DNA from: Desulfuromonadales bacterium | GTDB taxonomy: Bacteria > Desulfobacterota > Desulfuromonadia > Desulfuromonadales > UBA2197 | Assembly (NCBI GenBank): GCA_014859605.1 | Contig: JACUTW010000020.1 | Location: forward strand, 1-35,569 | DNA length: 35,569 nucleotides | Direction of reading: 5' to 3' | In this document: positions 19,944-35,073 of the stretch, one piece after another | Layout of the letters: the number at the start of each line of letters is the position of its first letter | Position numbering within the stretch: the first letter of the stretch is position 1 | The notes under the pieces: generated by a model | The model's input: the letters and a program-made list of their open reading frames with translations, nothing else | Databases searched by the model: none | Told to the model about the DNA's origin: nothing | Position numbers and translations under genes: made by a program

Positions 19944-20041
19944 TTTCTCCTTAGGTTAAATTTGTCAACGGCCAAAAGCCGTCGCCGGATCTGGAGGGGG
20001 AGCCGTATCCCCCCAGTTCACGGGGTGTGAAACAGCTGAGC
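19944..20041 (-). promoter_or_regulatory. Structured rpmI-rplT intercistronic RNA
   Basis: On the minus strand this gap can form a G/C-rich hairpin (CTGGGGGG near 20014 with CCCCCTCCAG near 19992) and a smaller one (ACGGC TTTTG GCCGT near 19972). It ends in an AAGGAG ribosome-binding site for rplT. It could be an L20 autoregulatory site, but that is inferred only from position and folding. Confidence 0.35.
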
Positions 20042-25054: not shown

Positions 25055-25092
25055 CCCCCTTCACTCATTAGCAACCGACCTCTTTGACATTT

Positions 25093-25131
25093 TGTGCCAT
25101 TTATGACATTTTCCCTGTCAAAAAAGGCACA
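25093..25131 (+). promoter_or_regulatory. Two palindromic operator-like sites before the Fe-S/sigma-54 regulator
   Basis: Site D (25093-25110) is TGTGCCA-TTTA-TGACATT and site E (25114-25131) is CCTGTCA-AAAA-AGGCACA. Both fit the palindrome TGTGYCA-N4-TGACACA found three times downstream of the gene, less perfectly. Their centres are 21 bases apart, two helical turns, and they lie 19-57 bases before the regulator ATG. A TTGACA sits at 25084-25089, so binding here could shut off the gene's own promoter. Confidence 0.55.
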
Positions 25132-25149
25132 TCCGACAGGAGCTTATCG

Positions 25150-27468
25150 ATGGCAGGGCCGATTACCACACTGCAAGAACGTTGTCGCAAATGCTATTCC
25201 TGCGTCCGCAACTGTCCGGTGAAAGCAATCAAAGTTCATAAGGACCATGCAGAAATCATTGATAGCCGCTGTATCGGTTGCGGCATCTGTGTCCGGGCCT
25301 GCTCCCAGCAGGCCAAAGTCATTGCCGACAGCATTCAGACCGTGCAAAGGCTCATGCAAGGGAGTGACGCGATCGTTGCTATTCTTGGCTGTTCTTACCC
25401 GGCCTTCTTCAACGATATCCGTCCCGGACAACTCGCCGCCGGCATCAAGGCTCTGGGCTTTTCCGAAGTACACGAAGGCGCCAGCGGCGTCGAACTGATC
25501 CGGCAAGCCTACCGTTCCGAGATCGAGAATCAGGGAAAATGCGCTCCCCCTCTCTTTTCGAGTCACTGCCCGGCGATTGTCGATCTGATTGAACGCCACT
25601 ATCCGCAGCTTTTACGCAACCTGCTCAAGACGGTGTCACCGATGATTGCCGCCGGACGTTTCATCAAAGAGACCCTCGGCGCCCAAACCAAAGTCGTCTA
25701 TATCAGCTCCTGCATTGCCGGAAAGTTTGAAATTCAAGCCGAACAGGTCAGTGATGCCATCGATGTCGTTCTGACCTACAAAGAGTTGACGCAAATGCTC
25801 AAGAACCAAAAGATCGACTTGAGCCGCCTGCCCAGCCAGCCCTTCGCCGGCATCCCCCCCCATAATGAAAGCCGGCTCTTTTCTATCGCCGGGGGCCCCC
25901 ACAGCGCGTTTGGGGTCAAGAGCGACATGTTTCACCCGGAATTTCTCAGCTCCGAAGGTCCGGAAAATGCCCTGGAAATTATCCGCGACCTGGCAGCGGG
26001 AAGAATCACCCCCCGCTTCGTGGATATCCGCTTTTGCACCGGCGGCTGTATCGGCGGCTGTATCGGCGGGCCGGGCAAAAACAACCGCCTGACGACCTTC
26101 AGCAAGCGCAACCTCATCTACCAGCACGCACACAGCGAAGTCCCTTATCAGACCGCCAGTCATTACAATAGAGCAGAGCCAAAGATCGTTATCAATCGCA
26201 CCTTCAGAAACAAGCATAAACGCCTGGAACTGCCGAACGGTGACAGCGTGCGCAACATCCTGCAATCGATCAATAAATTTGTTGAAGGGGACGAATTGAA
26301 TTGCGGCGCCTGTGGTTACGCCACCTGCCGGGAATATGCCGTTGCGGTCTTTCAGGGATTGGCGGAACAGGAGATGTGCCTTCCCTATGCGGTTAAACGC
26401 TTGGAAGAGGATCACTCTACGTTAACGCAAAAATTTGAACTAGTCCAACGCGCCTTGGCGCAGGAAGTCGGATCATCGGCGATCGTCGGTGAAGATCCCC
26501 GCACCATCGATATTCTCGGACTTATTCATCAGGTCGCACCGACGCCGACGACCGTGCTGATTCGCGGCGAGAGCGGAACCGGCAAAGAGTTGACCGCACG
26601 AGCCATCCATGAAAAGAGCCTGCGCGCCGACAAACCCCTTGTCACCATCAACTGCACGACGATCACCGACAGCCTTTTGGAGAGCGAGCTCTTCGGTCAC
26701 AAAAAAGGGGCCTTTACCGGCGCCATTGGTGACAAAAAAGGGCTCTTCGAAGCCGCGAACGGCGGCACCATCTTTCTCGATGAAATCGGCGACATTACCC
26801 CAAAACTGCAAGCGGAACTTTTGCGCGTTCTCGACAACGGTGAAATTCGCCCGGTCGGGGGGAATGCCCCGATCAAAGTGGATGTCCGCCTGATTGCCGC
26901 GACCAATAAAGACCTGGAAACAGGCATCCGCGAAGGCTGGTTTCGCGAAGATCTCTTTTATCGCCTCAATGTCTTTACCATCTCCCAGCCACCGCTGCGC
27001 AGTCGTCTCGAATCCCTGCCGGCCCTGGTGGAGAATTTTCGGGCCCGGGCCAGTCGCCGTCTCAACAAACCGATCAAAGGGATCGATGAGCGAGCACTGC
27101 GGGCGTTGATGCGCTATCCCTGGCCGGGCAATATTCGCGAACTGCAAAACATCATTGAACGCGCCTCGGTCCTTGCCCAGGACAGCGTCATCCGCCTGGA
27201 GAATCTCCCGGTCGTCTTCACAGAACTCTCCATGAGCGAAGGGCGCACCGAGACCGATCAGACAACGCCGAGCTTTCGCTCACAACGTGACAAACATATT
27301 GGTCAAATGGAGAAGAATCTCCTCATCCATTTTCTCCGGGAAGCCGGAGGAAATGTATCGGCGGCGGCAATTCAGGCCGGAATCCCCCGCCGCACCTTTT
27401 ATCGCCTCCTCGATCGCAACGGTTTAAGTGGCAAGGAATTCAATAAAAACAGGGCGGAACAACTTTAG
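25150..27468 (+). CDS. Sigma-54 activator fused to ferredoxin and [FeFe]-hydrogenase-like sensor domains
   Basis: A 772-residue single-chain regulator, started at the ATG at 25150 behind CAGGAG. Domains: two [4Fe-4S] ferredoxin motifs (CRKCYSCVRNCP, 12-23; CIGCGICVRACS, 41-52); an [FeFe]-hydrogenase large-subunit-like domain (about 70-310); a CX2CX4CX16C Fe-S domain (C385, C388, C393, C410); a sigma-54 AAA+ domain (about 440-690; Walker A GESGTGKE at 473, GAFTGA at 520, Walker B TIFLDEIGD); and a Fis-type HTH (about 725-760). The four H-cluster ligand cysteines appear kept: C140 (SSHCP), C188 (SSCIAGK), C296 and C300 (FCTGGCIGG). The proton-relay cysteine of catalytic enzymes (TSCCP) is histidine 139. 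This pattern fits a sensory rather than catalytic hydrogenase. There is no PAS or receiver domain. The ligand (H2, redox state, CO or NO) is not known. Confidence 0.92.
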   Translation: MAGPITTLQERCRKCYSCVRNCPVKAIKVHKDHAEIIDSRCIGCGICVRACSQQAKVIADSIQTVQRLMQGSDAIVAILGCSYPAFFNDIRPGQLAAGIKALGFSEVHEGASGVELIRQAYRSEIENQGKCAPPLFSSHCPAIVDLIERHYPQLLRNLLKTVSPMIAAGRFIKETLGAQTKVVYISSCIAGKFEIQAEQVSDAIDVVLTYKELTQMLKNQKIDLSRLPSQPFAGIPPHNESRLFSIAGGPHSAFGVKSDMFHPEFLSSEGPENALEIIRDLAAGRITPRFVDIRFCTGGCIGGCIGGPGKNNRLTTFSKRNLIYQHAHSEVPYQTASHYNRAEPKIVINRTFRNKHKRLELPNGDSVRNILQSINKFVEGDELNCGACGYATCREYAVAVFQGLAEQEMCLPYAVKRLEEDHSTLTQKFELVQRALAQEVGSSAIVGEDPRTIDILGLIHQVAPTPTTVLIRGESGTGKELTARAIHEKSLRADKPLVTINCTTITDSLLESELFGHKKGAFTGAIGDKKGLFEAANGGTIFLDEIGDITPKLQAELLRVLDNGEIRPVGGNAPIKVDVRLIAATNKDLETGIREGWFREDLFYRLNVFTISQPPLRSRLESLPALVENFRARASRRLNKPIKGIDERALRALMRYPWPGNIRELQNIIERASVLAQDSVIRLENLPVVFTELSMSEGRTETDQTTPSFRSQRDKHIGQMEKNLLIHFLREAGGNVSAAAIQAGIPRRTFYRLLDRNGLSGKEFNKNRAEQL

Positions 27469-27665: not shown

Positions 27666-27681
27666 TGGCACGGCCATTGCT
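27666..27681 (+). promoter_or_regulatory. Sigma-54 promoter (-24/-12)
   Basis: TGGCACG-GCCA-TTGCT matches the sigma-54 consensus TGGCACG-N4-TTGCW at every defined base, with GG at 27667-27668 and GC at 27679-27680. Transcription should begin near 27692. It follows an A-rich stretch and three enhancer-like palindromes. Confidence 0.9.
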
Positions 27682-27691
27682 ATAATGAAAA

Positions 27692-27787
27692 CTATGAACG
27701 GGGAAAAAGACTTGGTTTACCACCGACATCCACCCCCCTTTGCGCCGTCCGGTTCTCTCTCCCCGGACGGCGCTTTTTTTATTTTTT
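27692..27787 (+). ncRNA. Predicted sigma-54-dependent small RNA
   Basis: Between the sigma-54 promoter and a strong intrinsic terminator lies a unit of about 95 bases. The only ATG-led frames inside it run through the terminator without a stop and lack a ribosome-binding site, so coding is unlikely. The RNA would have an unpaired 5' half with a C-rich run (about 27730-27739, ccacccccctt) that could pair with G-rich ribosome-binding sites, followed by the terminator hairpin. No known RNA family was recognised, and its targets are unknown. It is placed directly after the gene of the Fe-S/sigma-54 regulator, its probable activator. Confidence 0.65.
27742..27787 (+). terminator. Strong intrinsic terminator before ptsP
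   Basis: GCGCCGTCCGG (27742-27752) pairs with CCGGACGGCGC (27763-27773), an 11-bp GC-rich stem with a 10-base loop, followed by TTTTTTTATTTTTT. It separates the sigma-54 transcript from ptsP. Confidence 0.93.
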
Positions 27788-27788
27788 C

Positions 27789-27818
27789 CTGTCATCCCTC
27801 TAAAGTTCACGATAAAAT
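27789..27818 (+). promoter_or_regulatory. Weak candidate promoter for ptsP
   Basis: CTGTCA (27789-27794), 18 bases, TAAAAT (27813-27818), 32 bases before the ptsP ATG. Because a strong terminator lies just upstream, ptsP needs its own promoter and this is the best match seen. Confidence 0.4.
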
Positions 27819-27850
27819 AAAGAACATTTCATAGACCGTCAGGATTGCAC

Positions 27851-30199
27851 ATGCCCATTAACAAAACTGAAAATTTCGGTATCAGTACCCTTGAGGATAT
27901 CAGCGCCCTGATTCTGCAATCCCACGATCTCGAAGAGACTCTGGGGAACATTGTCGCTCTCGTTGCCAAGCGCATGGGGACGGAGGTCTGCTCCATCTAC
28001 CTCTTTGACGACGACGGCGACACCTTACGGTTGCGGGCATCGAAAGGTCTTTCCCCCCGCTCGGTCGGCAAGGTCTCGATGAAACTCGGCGAGGGCTTAA
28101 CCGGTCTGGCCGTCGAAGAACGGCGGGTGGTCTCCATTCCGGAACCCCACAATCATCCGCGTTATCGCTACTTTAAAGAGACCGGGGAGGAGCGCTATCA
28201 CTCTTTTCTCGGCATCCCTCTCTTTGACCGGAAAAATCCCATCGGCGTCATCGTCATCCAGACAAAAGAACCCCGCACCTTTATCAACGAAGAGATCAGC
28301 GCCCTCTCCACCATTGCCTTTCAAATCGCTTCGATCGTTATCAATGCCCGACTCCTTGAATCGATCGGCCAGAAAGAGGAAGAGTCGCGCCATGTCGCCC
28401 TGGAGCTGGAGAAGGCGCGATCGACATTTCTCAACAACAAGAAGAAAAAAAAGGGGAAAGAGTCGCAGTCGATCCTGCGCGGGACAGTCGCTTACCCGGG
28501 ACTGGCGACGGGATCGGCACATGTTCTCGATGAACGCCTCGGATTTACCGATCTTCTCGATGATGAATGGACTGACCCGGATTTTGAACTCAAACGCCTG
28601 GAAAGTGCGCTCGAAAAGACCCGGATCGAGACCATCTATCTGGAAAAGCAGGTCGCCGAACGCCTCTCCGAAGATGATGCCGCAATCTTTCACACCCACC
28701 TGATGATCCTGGAGGATCGTGGTTTCATTGAAAAATTGCGCCGCGAAATTGAGCAGGGGTGCAGTGCCCAACATGCCTTAAAGACCGTTGCCGGAGAATA
28801 TATCGAAGCCTTTTCCCACATGGAGGACTCTTACCTGCGCGAGCGGGCCGTCGACATGGAAGATATCGCCCGTCGCCTCCATGCCAACATCCTCGGCAAC
28901 GAGCACCAACCCTTACAACTCAAGCATGCCGGCGTCCTGGTCGCCCGCAGCCTGCTCCCTTCTGACATGGCCACCCTCGACCACAGCAAGGTGCGCGGCA
29001 TTGTCACGGAAGTCGGCGAGATGAACTCGCATGCGGTTATCATGGCGAAATCCCTCGGCATTCCCGCCCTGGTCGGAGTCTTCGGCGTTGTGCAGGCGAT
29101 TCGTCCTGACGACCACCTCATCCTCGATGCCAATTCCGGATGCCTGTATATCAATCCGCCCCGCCACATCGTCACGGAATATCTGCGCATTGAACGGGAT
29201 CGGGACAAAGAGGAAGAATCTCTGGAAGGGTTCCGCGACCAACTGGCGGTAACCAGCGACGGCGAACGCGTCTGCCTGCGCGCCAACGTCGGTCTGGTCA
29301 GCGACATCGGTATAGCTGTGCGCAATGGCGCCGAAGGCATCGGCCTGTACCGCACAGAATTCCCTTACATGACCCGCAACTCTTTCCCGTCCCGACACGA
29401 TCAATACCTCCTTTACCGGCGCATGGTTGAAGGCTTTGCCGGCCAACCGGTGACGATCCGGACCCTCGATATCGGCGGCGACAAGGCTTTGCCCTACTTC
29501 CCCCTCCCCAAAGAGGATAACCCCTTTATGGGCTGGCGCTCGGTGCGCGTCTCCCTTGACTATCAAGATATTTTTCGCACCCAGATCGAAGCGATCTTGA
29601 TGGCGGCGGTGCATGGCAACGTCAAGCTCCTCTTTCCGATGATCAGCGGTGTCGAGGAGATCTTGTCCTGCCGGAAGATTGTCGAAGAAGCGGCCGAAAA
29701 TTTAAGGCGCGAGGGGATTCCTTTTTCCGAGACCGTCCCGGCTGGAATCATGATCGAAGTTCCGGCAGCGGTGCAATTAGTCGGCATGTTGGCAAAGCAT
29801 GTTGACTTTTTTGCCCTCGGCACTAACGATCTGGTGCAATACATGCTCGCCGCCGACCGCAACAATCCTTTGGTGAAAAACTATTATGATCCCTTTCACC
29901 CTGCCGTCCTGCACGCCCTGCGGCATGTGGCCGACGTCGCCCGCACTCATAACAAAGGGCTCTGTATCTGCGGTGAAATGGCGACCGACCCGCAAGCCCT
30001 GCTCTTTTTGATCGGCATCGGTGTCCGCGAAATGTCGATGGCAGCACCCTACATTCCCAAAGTCAAACAGATCCTGTCCACCCTCAACACCAGCGCGACC
30101 CGGAAGATCGCCAAAGAGATCTTGACCCTGGAAAACAGCAGTGAAATTCGTCAGCATCTCGGTGCCGCTCTCATGCGCAGCAAGAAGACCACGCGATAA
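27851..30199 (+). CDS. ptsP: Phosphoenolpyruvate--protein phosphotransferase PtsP (enzyme I-Ntr)
   Basis: PtsP takes phosphate from PEP and passes it to the NPr carrier of the nitrogen-related PTS, a regulatory chain. The product is 782 residues from the ATG at 27851 (AGGA six bases upstream). It has an N-terminal GAF sensor domain (about 15-165), a basic KKKKKGKE linker, an NPr-binding helical domain, then the phosphohistidine domain with MNSHAVIMAKSLGIPALVG (His394 is the expected phosphorylation site). The C-terminal PEP-binding TIM barrel follows (ICGEMATDP, SMAAPYIPKVKQ). It overlaps the Nudix gene start in TAATG. The NPr and EIIA-Ntr genes are not in this window. Confidence 0.95.
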   Translation: MPINKTENFGISTLEDISALILQSHDLEETLGNIVALVAKRMGTEVCSIYLFDDDGDTLRLRASKGLSPRSVGKVSMKLGEGLTGLAVEERRVVSIPEPHNHPRYRYFKETGEERYHSFLGIPLFDRKNPIGVIVIQTKEPRTFINEEISALSTIAFQIASIVINARLLESIGQKEEESRHVALELEKARSTFLNNKKKKKGKESQSILRGTVAYPGLATGSAHVLDERLGFTDLLDDEWTDPDFELKRLESALEKTRIETIYLEKQVAERLSEDDAAIFHTHLMILEDRGFIEKLRREIEQGCSAQHALKTVAGEYIEAFSHMEDSYLRERAVDMEDIARRLHANILGNEHQPLQLKHAGVLVARSLLPSDMATLDHSKVRGIVTEVGEMNSHAVIMAKSLGIPALVGVFGVVQAIRPDDHLILDANSGCLYINPPRHIVTEYLRIERDRDKEEESLEGFRDQLAVTSDGERVCLRANVGLVSDIGIAVRNGAEGIGLYRTEFPYMTRNSFPSRHDQYLLYRRMVEGFAGQPVTIRTLDIGGDKALPYFPLPKEDNPFMGWRSVRVSLDYQDIFRTQIEAILMAAVHGNVKLLFPMISGVEEILSCRKIVEEAAENLRREGIPFSETVPAGIMIEVPAAVQLVGMLAKHVDFFALGTNDLVQYMLAADRNNPLVKNYYDPFHPAVLHALRHVADVARTHNKGLCICGEMATDPQALLFLIGIGVREMSMAAPYIPKVKQILSTLNTSATRKIAKEILTLENSSEIRQHLGAALMRSKKTTR

Positions 30200-30825
30200 T
30201 GCAAAGAACGCCCGAATCCTTCTTCACACTTAAACACCTGCGTGCGGCCCTTGCCAGCTATCAACCCCGCCTGACTGATCGCAGCACCTGGCCCGGACAC
30301 ACGCACGCCTCCGTGGCCCTGCTCTTAAGAGAAGGCCGATGCGGAGTCGAGATCCTCTTTATTTTGCGGGCCGAGTTCCATGGTGATCCCTGGTCGGGAA
30401 ATATCGCCTTTCCCGGAGGGCACATCGAAGCTGACGACGAAACGGTGCGAGCCGCGGCCGAGCGGGAAACGCTCGAAGAGATCGGTATTGACCTGCAGCA
30501 GGAAGAGTTTCTCGGACGCCTTGATGATGTCGCCGGGGCCCATTTACCGGTGATCGTGTCCTGTTTTTCTTATCGCGTCGCCACATCCACCCCGCTCTTC
30601 CCCAACCGGGAGATCAACGAAACCTTCTGGGTGCCGCTAACGGACCTTGCCAACCCAAATCGCCAGCGTTTGCATTACGTCATGTTTCGCGGCGAGCAAC
30701 TCGAACGCCCTGCCATCGATCTCCTTGGCCCAGGTCGCACCGTCCTTTGGGGGATCACTTATCGTTTGGTGAGCCACTTCATGCAATTAACCGGTGCCCC
30801 CCTGCCGCCGACGCCGATCCCCTGA
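30199..30825 (+). CDS. Nudix hydrolase, CoA pyrophosphatase-like (NudL type)
   Basis: The 208-residue product carries a Nudix box (FPGGHIEADDETVRAAAERE followed by TLEEIGI), which binds the metal that cleaves nucleoside-diphosphate-linked substrates. The sequence before it (EILFILRAEFHGDPWSGNIA) resembles the extra motif of coenzyme A pyrophosphatases, so CoA or a CoA derivative is the most likely substrate; other Nudix substrates remain possible. Its start overlaps the ptsP stop (TAATG) and its stop overlaps the next start (TGATG), so all three genes are translationally coupled. Confidence 0.88.
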   Translation: MQRTPESFFTLKHLRAALASYQPRLTDRSTWPGHTHASVALLLREGRCGVEILFILRAEFHGDPWSGNIAFPGGHIEADDETVRAAAERETLEEIGIDLQQEEFLGRLDDVAGAHLPVIVSCFSYRVATSTPLFPNREINETFWVPLTDLANPNRQRLHYVMFRGEQLERPAIDLLGPGRTVLWGITYRLVSHFMQLTGAPLPPTPIP

Positions 30826-31751
30826 TGCGCCCTCTCCGCTCCTATCTGCAGGATATCGAATTTGTCGAGATCTCCTTCCACTACCAATTGGAGACTCCGC
30901 GAATTTTGCCACTATTCCCTGAATTGCTGCTGCGTTCGACGCTGCATCAGACCGGGTTGGAAGTGCTCGACCCGGAACCCTTTGAACGTCTCTTCACACC
31001 GCCCCTGCCGGACGATCCGACGGCACTGCGGCGCTACCAGCGCCCCGCCCCACCCTTTGCCTTTTGTCCTCAATCAGCCAACCCGACAATGACAGCAACG
31101 GATCGCGGGATCATCTCCTGCCACCTCTTTGGCGCCGGAATTGAACTCCTCGATCCATTGGTCAAGACCATGGCCGAAATACACCCCTTCCTACTTGCCA
31201 ACCGCCAACGCCAGGGCCAACTTATAACGGTTTCAGCGACTGACGCAGCTGGTAATGTTATCACTATCTGGCAAAAGGGGATGGGGAAATGCATCGAACC
31301 GCCGCGCATCACCGCCGCCTGGCGCTTCGATTCTTTGCCCGCATCGACCACCGAATGGTGTCTGGAATTCTTCACCCCGGCGCGGCTCCTGACGCAGAAG
31401 AAACCCCTTTTCCGCCCGGCCTTTCATCACATTCTCCCTTTTATTCTGCGCCGCGTTACGGCACTCTGTTATTTCTGTAATCACATTGAAATCACCGGAG
31501 CAACAGAGTTGCTGGAATTGAGCGCAGAGATCAAGGAAGAAGCGGGTGAGTGGCGCTGGCACGATTGGCGCAGCCATCCGGGCGGCGGGATTCTGAGCGA
31601 ACTCGGCGGGGTCTGTGGTCAATTGCGGCTTAAAGGGGAACTGCCCGATGACCTGATTGACCTGCTCCGCCTCGGGTCATTGATGAATATCGGTAAAGGG
31701 GCGGCTTACGGCGCCGGCGCTTACCGGTTGACTCCGCTGCCTCCCGCATAA
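30825..31751 (+). CDS. Orphan Cas6-like RAMP-family protein
   Basis: The 308-residue product, from the ATG at 30825, resembles the Cas6 family that cuts CRISPR precursor RNA. In its C-terminal half, FHHILPFILRRVTALCYF matches the family's LLRRL-x4-YF segment. Next come DWRSHPGGGILSELGGVCG and the glycine-rich RNA-binding loop LGSLMNIGKGAAYGAGAYRL (about 284-303). Both RAMP-like halves appear to be present. No CRISPR array and no other cas gene is seen in the window, and the gene is coupled to ptsP and a Nudix gene. It may serve a CRISPR array elsewhere, or have been recruited to another RNA-processing job. I cannot identify a catalytic histidine with confidence. A frame extending upstream inside the Nudix gene is a shadow. 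Confidence 0.82.
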   Translation: MRPLRSYLQDIEFVEISFHYQLETPRILPLFPELLLRSTLHQTGLEVLDPEPFERLFTPPLPDDPTALRRYQRPAPPFAFCPQSANPTMTATDRGIISCHLFGAGIELLDPLVKTMAEIHPFLLANRQRQGQLITVSATDAAGNVITIWQKGMGKCIEPPRITAAWRFDSLPASTTEWCLEFFTPARLLTQKKPLFRPAFHHILPFILRRVTALCYFCNHIEITGATELLELSAEIKEEAGEWRWHDWRSHPGGGILSELGGVCGQLRLKGELPDDLIDLLRLGSLMNIGKGAAYGAGAYRLTPLPPA

Positions 31752-31767: not shown

Positions 31768-31808
31768 AAAAACGGTCGCGTCTCCCTGATGGAAACGCGA
31801 CCGTTTTT
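31768..31808. terminator. Bidirectional terminator between the Cas6-like gene and carB
   Basis: AAAAACGGTCGCGT (31768-31781) pairs perfectly with 31795-31808, a 14-bp stem flanked by A- and T-runs. It lies between two convergent genes and can serve both. Confidence 0.92.
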
Positions 31809-31830
31809 ATCTTTACTCTTCGAAAGAAGC

Positions 31831-34800
31831 TCAAAGGGTTGCGAGATAATCCTGCAACGGCTTGACCCGCAGTTCCTGCGTCTTCAAAGCGGCAATGGCG
31901 TCGGCAATCGCGCTGGCGCCGGAGATGGTAGTGTCGTAAGCAATCCCCTGCATCAAAGCTTCGCGGCGGATCGAGTAAGAATCGATCACCGCCTGCGCCC
32001 CGTGTGTGGTGTTGATCACCAACTGCACCTCACCATTTTTCAGAGCATCGACGATATGCGGGCGCCCCTGCAGAACCTTGTTGATGCGCTGGACATTCAG
32101 CCCCTTCTCGATCAAAAAAGCCGCCGTACCATCCGTAGCGATCAGCCCAAAACCACAGGCCTGTAACTTCTTTGCCGGCTCAAGGATGCACTTCTTATCG
32201 ATGTCGCGCACGCTGATAAAGACATTCCCCTTCACGGGGAGTTTGACATTAGCGCCGAGTTGCGCCTTGGCAAAGGCTTCGGCAAAGGTATCGCCGATCC
32301 CCATGACCTCTCCGGTCGATTTCATCTCCGGTCCGAGGATGGTATCGACACCGGGGAATTTGGCAAAGGGGAAGACCGCTTCCTTGACCGAATAGTAGGA
32401 CGGCACAATGTCGCCAAAGACTCCTAACTCCTTGAGACTCTTGCCGGCCATCACCCGCGCCGCGATCTTGGCAAGGGGGCGACCCGTGGCTTTGGAGACG
32501 AAAGGGGCGGTGCGGGAGGCACGAGGATTGACTTCGAGGATGTAGATTTTTCCGTCCTTGAGGGCATATTGCACGTTCATCAACCCTTTGACGTTCAGTT
32601 CCAACGCCATCATCACCGTTTGCCGGCGAATTTCCTCGATAACTTCCGGGGAGAGGGTATAAGGCGGGAGAGAACAGGCCGAATCACCGGAGTGAATCCC
32701 CGCTTCTTCGATATGCTCCATGATCCCGCCGATCACCACCTCGGTGCCGTCACAAAGGGCATCGACATCGATCTCGATCGCTTCATTGAGAAACTTGTCG
32801 ATGAGGATGGGGTGCTCCGGCGAGGCCAGTACCGCGGTCGTCATGTAGCGGCGCAGATTCTCGACGTCGTAGACGATCTCCATGGCGCGACCGCCGAGGA
32901 CGTAGGAAGGACGGACGACGACCGGGTAGCCGATGCGGTTGGCCACGACTTCCGCTTCTTCAAAAGAGCGGGCCGTGCCGTTCTCCGGCTGCAATAGCCC
33001 GAGTTTGTGCAACATCTCCTGGAAGCGCTCGCGGTCTTCCGCCCGGTCGATGGCGTCCGGCGAAGTGCCGATGATCGGCACCCCGGCCTGCTCCAGGGCG
33101 ACCGCCAGTTTGAGTGGCGTCTGACCGCCAAACTGGACGATCACCCCGATCGGCTTCTCGACGTGGACGATCTCCAACACATCTTCGAGGGTGAGCGGTT
33201 CGAAATAGAGACGATCCGAGGTGTCGTAGTCGGTGGAGACGGTTTCGGGGTTGCAGTTGACCATGATCGTCTCAAAACCATCCTCGGCGAGGGCAAAGAC
33301 CCCGTGCACGCAGCAGTAATCGAACTCAATCCCCTGGCCGATACGGTTCGGTCCGCCGCCGAGGATCATGATCTTCTTGCGGTCGGTCGGAGCGGCTTCA
33401 CACTCTTCTTCGTAGGTCGAGTAGAGGTAGGGCGTATAAGCGACAAACTCGGCGCCGCAGGTGTCGACCCGCTTGTAGACAGGACGGATCTTGAGGCCAT
33501 GGCGCAAAGCGCGGACTTCGTCTTCGCTTTTGCCCCACAACTTGCCGAGCATCTTGTCGGAGAAACCGTACTGTTTGGCTTCCAAAAGACTCTCGACGGA
33601 CATTCCCGCGCAGCCCGCTTCCTTGAGTTCTTCTTCCTTCTCAATAATCTGACGGATGTTATGCACAAACCAGGGATCGAAGGCAGTGATTTTGTGAATC
33701 TCGTCAACACTCATGCCGGTACGCAGGGCGTCGGCCAGATACCAGATGCGGTCGGCATTCGGCACCCGCAGCTTGTCGAGGAGGAGTTGCCGTTCGTTCT
33801 CGGAGAGGGCACGGCGGACATCGGCGCTAAGATCGAAGAATTTTGAGTCGAAACCGCAGACGCCGACTTCCAGGGCGCGCAACGACTTCTGCAACGACTC
33901 CTTGAAGGTGCGACCGATCGCCATAACCTCGCCGACCGACTTCATCTGCGTCGTTAGAGTGGCATCGGCGGCCGGAAACTTCTCAAAGGTAAAGCGCGGC
34001 ACCTTGGTGACGACATAGTCGATGGTCGGCTCGAAACAGGCCGGGGTCTCGCGGGTAATATCGTTACGGATCTCGTCGAGACGGTAGCCGACGGCAAGTT
34101 TGGCGGCAATCTTGGCGATGGGGAATCCGGTCGCCTTGGAGGCCAATGCCGAGGAGCGGGAGACGCGCGGGTTCATCTCGATAACGACGAGGCGGCCGTC
34201 GCGGGGATTGACCCCAAACTGGATATTGGAGCCGCCGGTATCGACGCCGATCTCGCGGATGATCTTGAGGGACGCATCGCGGAGGATCTGGTATTCCTTG
34301 TCGGTGAGGGTCTGCGCCGGGGCAACGGTGATCGAATCGCCGGTATGGACCCCCATCGGATCGAAGTTTTCGATCGAGCAGATGATGACGACGTTGTCGG
34401 CGGTGTCGCGCATGACTTCGAGCTCGTACTCTTTCCAACCGATGACCGACTCTTCAACGAGAATCTCGTCGGTCGGCGACGATTCGATGCCGAAGAGCGC
34501 CATGCGCTCGTACTCTTCCATGTTGTAGGCAATGCCGCCACCGGTGCCACCAAGGGTGAAGGAAGGACGAATGATCGCCGGGAAACCGATACTTTTGATC
34601 ACCTCCAGCGCCTCGACGCGGTTATGGGCGAGACCGGATTTCGGTACAGTCAGGCCGATCTTCTCCATGGCCTGCTTGAAGAGGGTGCGATCTTCCGCCT
34701 TCTTGATCGCCGGCAGCTTGGCGCCGATCAGTTCGACTCCGAACTTTTCGAGAATCCCGGCCTCAGCCACCGCCACCGCGGTGTTGAGGGCAGTCTGACC

Positions 34801-35073
34801 GCCGAGGGTCGGCAGAATGGCATCCGGACGTTCCTTCTCGATGATCTTGGCAAGGATCTCCGGCGTCACCGGCTCGATGTAGGTGCGGTCGGCAAAGTCC
34901 GGGTCAGTCATGATCGTCGCCGGGTTGCTGTTGAGGAGGATGACTTCAAAGCCCTCTTCCTTCAGCGCCTTGCACGCCTGGGTGCCGGAGTAATCGAATT
35001 CGCACGCCTGGCCGATAACGATGGGACCGGCGCCGATAATGAGAATTTTGTGAATGTCGGTTCTTTTGGGCAT
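31831..35073 (-). CDS. carB: Carbamoyl-phosphate synthase large subunit
   Basis: CarB makes carbamoyl phosphate for pyrimidines and arginine from bicarbonate, two ATP and ammonia supplied by CarA. The 1080-residue product is full length. It has two homologous ATP-grasp halves (first with [20 protein letters not shown], second with [20 protein letters not shown]), an oligomerisation domain between them, and a C-terminal MGS-like allosteric domain (about 940-1080, [18 protein letters not shown]). An AAGGAG precedes the ATG. carA is not the neighbour: the adjacent gene is a small membrane protein, and a REP-like element lies in the 87-base gap. Confidence 0.98.

Follow-up and report, generated by a model that had tools for sequence, protein, structure and literature searches.

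An orphan Cas6 homologue inherited throughout the class Desulfuromonadia

The cas6L locus and its Cas6 homology

The window, by which we mean the whole 35,569-nucleotide stretch of Desulfuromonadales DNA analyzed here, encodes a Cas6-family protein that we call cas6L. The gene and its surroundings are as follows.

27845-30199, plus strand: ptsP (GAF plus PEP-protein phosphotransferase), linked to cas6L in the window's genus only
30199-30825, plus strand: Nudix hydrolase (CoA pyrophosphatase-like), linked to cas6L in the window's genus only
30825-31751, plus strand: cas6L, an orphan Cas6-family protein of 308 amino acids, an open reading frame with PF10040 and PADLOC matches; conserved features are the two-arginine helix (R209, R210), W245, a GG pair at 261-262 and a glycine-rich loop at 290-298
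31772-31804, no strand assigned: perfect 10-bp inverted repeat followed by a T run, read from the sequence
31831-35073, minus strand: carB, carbamoyl-phosphate synthase large subunit, convergent, named from reading its translation

The ATG of cas6L begins at 30825 on the last base of the Nudix stop codon (TGATG), bearing out the gene coordinates and the overlap given in a preliminary description of this DNA; the Nudix ATG at 30199 likewise starts on the final base of the ptsP stop codon. The inverted repeat is likely a terminator common to cas6L and the convergent carB, and a terminator scan, which did not score above shuffled sequences, places a terminator-like site at 31788-31811. Elsewhere in the window, an L20 ribosomal-protein leader RNA (RF03126) lies at 19947-20025, above its gathering score.

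The preliminary description had recognized a glycine-rich C-terminal loop and an LLRRL-type helix, and both are present, as "IGKGAAYGAG" (290-298) and "ILRRV" (R209 and R210). The profile search that it proposed identifies a Cas6 homologue: PF10040 (CRISPR_Cas6) matches amino acids 180 to 300 with 46 bits against a cut-off of 25 (E 9e-12), placing cas6L in the Cas6 superfamily (PF10040/COG5551) with a score above the curated cut-off. The PADLOC Cas6 model PDLC01477 spans amino acids 10 to 303 (E 3e-44), and PADLOC Cas6 models match 69 of 69 orthologues from the window's order. A profile-profile comparison of cas6L with two type III-associated Cas6 proteins from its order gave an alignment of 287 columns (probability 99.7%, E 3e-26). 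The span of the PDLC01477 match together with this alignment indicates that cas6L is homologous to Cas6 along its entire length.

NCBIfam gave no real match to the window protein, and a search with the sequence pattern TGNCANNANNTGACACA gave none. The single protein found nothing significant among solved structures (best E 0.74). A profile of the 69 orthologues reached the MMB-1 Cas6 (6dd5, E 3.1e-6) and Cas6-RT-Cas1 (7kft, E 1.7e-4), both mainly over the C-terminal part. AlphaFold2, run on three sequences, produced a poor model of cas6L (pLDDT 45.5, pTM 0.38), so the fold is taken from sequence alone. In this low-confidence model, the order of helices and strands is compatible with two RRM-like domains, and the loop is conserved. 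Scanning genome contigs with cas6L returned two relatives, L032 and L033, the latter 86% identical; scans of viral contigs returned none.

Distribution, genomic place and CRISPR association

Of the order's 136 genomes, 112 have a cas6L homologue, nearly always as a single copy. The 24 genomes that lack it comprise all 14 of family f18 (G110-G123) and ten others (G010, G017, G023, G055, G062, G064, G079, G083, G085, and G098) that are at most 91% complete and in at least 180 contigs; G098 holds a type III Cas6 only. Across the class Desulfuromonadia (the Geobacter-Desulfuromonas group, in which families f22-f25 appear to be Geobacter-like), the profile matches 248 of 277 genomes, a figure that includes some CRISPR Cas6. 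Of 60 class loci that were fetched, 8 have the motifs of CRISPR Cas6 and the other 52 are orphans. A phylum sample gave matches in 159 of 395 genomes, 17 of these in the class. Among 21 of the best matches outside the class, 20 carry RYSxRQ or RWSxRQ, and the remaining one, L264, adjoins a gene read as a Cas10-like HD gene. Throughout, L143 (a fragment) was excluded from full-length counts and the tree, L032 (on the same contig as L066, from G099) from tallies, and L146 from the neighbor tally. The whole class inherits cas6L as an ordinary gene, mostly in genomes where no CRISPR genes were found.

The orphan status suggested in the preliminary description extends from the window to the genome. 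Searches of the window for regularly spaced exact 12-, 15-, or 20-mers, for tandem repeats, and for Rfam matches at gathering score detected no CRISPR array, in agreement with the reported absence of arrays and cas genes there. In the whole genome (2.76 Mb in 153 contigs, estimated to be 100% complete), searches for Cas1, RAMP, and Cas5 gave no match, nor did a type I-C-like repeat pattern, and PF10040 matches this gene alone, with no second Cas6. A functional CRISPR Cas6 is expected within or alongside a CRISPR-Cas locus, and by the marker, window-array, and I-C-like repeat searches cas6L has no such setting.

The same holds across the order. Cas markers (the union of Cas1, RAMP, and Cas5) occur in 48 of 136 genomes, and their share is 35% with cas6L (39 of 112) versus 38% without it (9 of 24); 73 of the 112 cas6L genomes have none of the three. 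cas6L is therefore not associated with CRISPR-cas genes in the order. A simple spacing test found arrays in 8 of 10 fetched cas regions, and seven of these eight have repeats that look like those of type I-C. The two genuine type III Cas6 proteins of the order, L144 and L145, are encoded beside RAMP and Cas10-like genes (Cas10 being named by reading).

The order ptsP-Nudix-cas6L-carB was found by tblastn in 3 of 3 genomes of the window's genus and at none of the other loci of the order; one of these, L125, shows a weak ptsP-like match (30%, E 6e-7). The gene order that the preliminary description proposed to follow is thus confined to one genus, and the operon it took as a functional clue was not seen at the loci outside that genus, where cas6L instead adjoins tgt and frdCAB. 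We accordingly discarded ptsP-Nudix linkage as a guide to cas6L function. The older place of the gene begins with tgt (PF01702), divergent, followed by frdCAB, cas6L, a TFIIB-type zinc ribbon (PF13453), and an FtsH-like protease. At 83 of 111 order loci and for 28 of 52 class orphans, tgt is found no more than six genes from cas6L, and frd genes are near 37 of the 52 class orphans. At L047 (G103), the frd genes, cas6L, the zinc ribbon, FtsH, a wHTH gene, and eno are found all together.

In family f18, tgt directly adjoins ftsH and cas6L is missing at all eight loci fetched (L266-L272 and L275), which is a clean loss of the gene. In the window's genus, tgt is retained elsewhere and cas6L has moved (L273, L274). 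cas6L is inherited, mostly vertically, at one chromosomal place, from which it has at times moved later. Being neighbors of cas6L does not by itself make tgt or frd its functional partners. Two side observations touch on this place. G000, G110-G123, G130, and G131 each have two TGT paralogues, with identities to the query of about 80% and 55%; one of the two sits at the ancestral cas6L place. Genes lost alongside cas6L in f18 could also point to a partner.

The region upstream of ptsP had been described as encoding a predicted small RNA that might be a substrate of the Cas6-like protein. A sigma-54-type promoter, TGGCACN5TTGC, is found at 27666-27681 (0.02 expected by chance), and the roughly 100 nt that follow (27682-27790) end in a strong GC hairpin and a T run; the fold z-score is -3.5 over the whole intergenic region. 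The segment looks like a sigma-54-dependent small RNA adjoining a sigma-54 activator gene. Rfam returned only CyaR and atoC for this region, below threshold, such that the predicted small RNA keeps its promoter and hairpin and gains no family assignment. The gene at 25084-27468, which adjoins the candidate promoter, encodes a sigma-54 activator fused to iron-only-hydrogenase-like large-subunit and Fe-S domains. The proposed role as substrate found no support. The hairpin region is conserved with ptsP in the window's genus, and elsewhere nothing links it to cas6L; since it is tied to ptsP and cas6L lies elsewhere in most genomes, it cannot be a conserved cas6L partner, and we rejected it as a conserved substrate. 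A structured RNA in the tgt-cas6L gap was likewise rejected: among 15 related genomes, the consensus fold reached only -2.4 kcal/mol, and the conserved parts look like promoter and ribosome-binding sequence.

Selection, conserved residues and phylogeny

cas6L is under purifying selection. Its dN/dS has a median of 0.16 and a maximum of 0.26 over 41 pairs (0.07 to 0.26 among the pairs listed). Between the window and L034, dN/dS is 0.156 for cas6L, 0.147 for Nudix, and 0.038 for PtsP, with amino acid identities of 86% for cas6L, 94% for PtsP, and 97% for CarB. P185, R187, R209, R210, W245, G261, and G262 are invariant in the 112 full-length homologues, of which L032 duplicates the L066 contig.

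We compared 19 CRISPR-linked Cas6 sequences (omitting L264) with 111 order and 52 class orphans, using L145 numbering. In the CRISPR set, R27, G28, G31, C39, C46, C49, C55, R250, S252, R254, Q255, and H288 are each 100% conserved. The orphans replace G28 and G31 and lose R250, S252, R254, and Q255 in both groups. Among the 111 order orphans, G28 becomes Arg in 86% and the second and third cysteines are absent; class orphans retain the last three cysteines in 80 to 92%. H288 is Asn in 62%, Gly in 23%, and His in 6% of order orphans (Asn in the window protein), and His in 55% and Asn in 40% of class orphans. R209 and R210 are found in 100% of both orphan groups and K291 in 97 to 98%. Both groups thus lack RGxFG and RYSxRQ and retain the two-arginine helix and glycine-rich loop, and the residues invariant in CRISPR Cas6 (RGxFG, RYSxRQ, and the H of HxGK) are not preserved as a set in the orphans. 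By these alignments, the second domain retains its conserved core and the CRISPR-specific signature has disappeared. To describe the RYSxRQ segment as catalytic would be guesswork. No new conserved His or Tyr was found in the first domain among the 112 full-length homologues of the order.

A quick maximum-likelihood tree of 121 sequences (49 order orphans, 52 class orphans, and 20 CRISPR Cas6) places the order orphans, class orphans, and CRISPR Cas6 each on one side of a branch, with SH-aLRT values of 100, 99, and 98. L264 was included with the CRISPR group. Eleven of the 21 phylum loci (L246, L250, L253-L256, L258, L259, and L261-L263) were left out of the tree, with motifs read in all 21. 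The tree and the motif evidence are not fully independent, because the CRISPR labels in the tree were mostly set by motif. As the tree is unrooted, the orphan groups may be sisters or separately derived; their common place beside tgt favors one origin of both.

A probable domesticated Cas6 and its relation to known systems

Building on the homology, orphan status, class-wide presence, synteny, selection, and motif loss described above, we consider it probable that cas6L is a Cas6 domesticated early in Desulfuromonadia that binds RNA and probably does not cleave pre-crRNA. A type III-associated kind of Cas6 would have been captured at or before the origin of the class, at the chromosomal place beside tgt and frdCAB, and would have descended mostly vertically afterwards. 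It would have lost RGxFG in the first helix and the RYSxRQ segment, and in the window's order the four cysteines too, while retaining the two-arginine helix and glycine-rich loop of the second RRM-like domain. Most likely, the protein now binds a structured cellular RNA, with pre-crRNA processing lost. RNA binding is suggested by the family and the retained motifs, and loss of pre-crRNA cleavage by the motifs that are missing; with the CRISPR-linked residues gone, binding is likelier than pre-crRNA cleavage. Loss of a histidine is not in itself proof of lost cleavage, because the Cas6 of S. solfataricus that lacks it is described as still active (PMC3652601). The recruited function put forward in the preliminary description survives as a non-CRISPR role, supported by class-wide vertical inheritance, the lack of cas association, and purifying selection; for RNA cutting, the other half of that proposal, we found no evidence. 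We infer that cas6L has one dedicated RNA substrate. More tentatively, nearly all Desulfuromonadia might use it as a cellular RNA-binding factor with an endogenous RNA ligand of its own, outside RNA-guided systems.

Could cas6L still serve transient CRISPR loci in trans by processing their pre-crRNA? Type III loci often depend on a Cas6 from elsewhere (PMC12669027), and 39 of the 112 cas6L genomes have a cas marker. However, the other 73 have none of the three, markers are about as frequent where the gene is absent (9 of 24), and the order's two type III loci, L144 and L145, carry their own Cas6 with motifs intact. Seven of ten cas regions have arrays with an I-C-looking repeat, and the invariant residues of CRISPR-linked relatives are lost in the orphans. 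Type I-C systems use Cas5 in place of Cas6 (PMC3652601), and processing in trans is, on balance, improbable. It is likewise unlikely that cas6L has rebuilt its active site and cleaves a new cellular RNA as an active endoribonuclease, maturing for example mRNA or small RNA hairpins. Cas6 active sites do vary, low-rate catalysis without the histidine is known (PMC3652601), K291 persists in 97 to 98% of orphans, and H288 persists in 55% of class orphans, yet the order has gained no conserved His or Tyr in the first domain, and H288 is Asn or Gly in most of its members, Asn in the window protein.

Two further readings appear very unlikely. A slowly decaying, functionless relic, a reading already disfavored, would fit the loss of cas6L from the entire family f18 and its faster evolution than that of its neighbors (86% identity to L034, against 94% for PtsP and 97% for CarB), but not the open reading frames retained class-wide, the dN/dS of 0.07 to 0.26 among the pairs listed, or the several columns invariant in 112 sequences. 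A CRISPR-independent defense factor that binds, for example, phage or other foreign structured RNA would fit the defense ancestry and fast evolution of cas6L. Defense genes are usually patchy and mobile, whereas cas6L is near-universal, syntenic, and set beside metabolic and tRNA-modification genes.

The pattern suggests that a defense protein was taken over for another RNA-related job in the cell. If true, early domestication of cas6L would be a complete domestication of Cas6 outside any RNA-guided system, and its core-like inheritance in the Geobacter-Desulfuromonas group offers a genetically tractable route to the repurposing of a CRISPR RNA-binding protein. PADLOC labels all 69 tested order members plainly as Cas6, and in these genomes nothing about CRISPR can be read from such a label. 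Cas genes outside CRISPR loci are usually set aside; a 2025 classification treats Cas-profile matches outside CRISPR-cas islands as false positives for profile building (PMC12669027). CRISPR-Cas loci with E. coli-type Cascade genes are described in G. sulfurreducens and P. carbinolicus (PMC2923632), and the sections on Cas6 and exaptation in PMC3150331 and PMC8730458 do not mention the cas6L family. We found no report of the family in the open-access literature searched, which is not proof of absence.

Among known systems, solo-Cas4, from an unrelated nuclease family, is an earlier example of a cas gene found away from CRISPR loci (PMC5704561). SsoCas6 (Sso1437) resembles the orphans in lacking the usual catalytic histidine; unlike them, it is described as an active pre-crRNA nuclease from a CRISPR-bearing genome (PMC3652601). 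The orphan profile reached only two solved structures, MMB-1 Cas6 (6dd5) and Cas6-RT-Cas1 (7kft), both of them domains of a protein for CRISPR adaptation; they align mainly in the C-terminal domain, their N-terminal halves aligning weakly or not at all. Full-length homology with the orphans is found in the type III Cas6 of the same phylum (L145, L144; PDLC01477), which share TPxR, the RR helix, GG, and the GK...G.G loop. These CRISPR Cas6 proteins have RGxFG, four cysteines, WxDWxRYSxRQ, and HxGK, whereas the orphans, encoded outside cas operons, lack RGxFG and RYSxRQ and, in the window's order, the cysteines as well.
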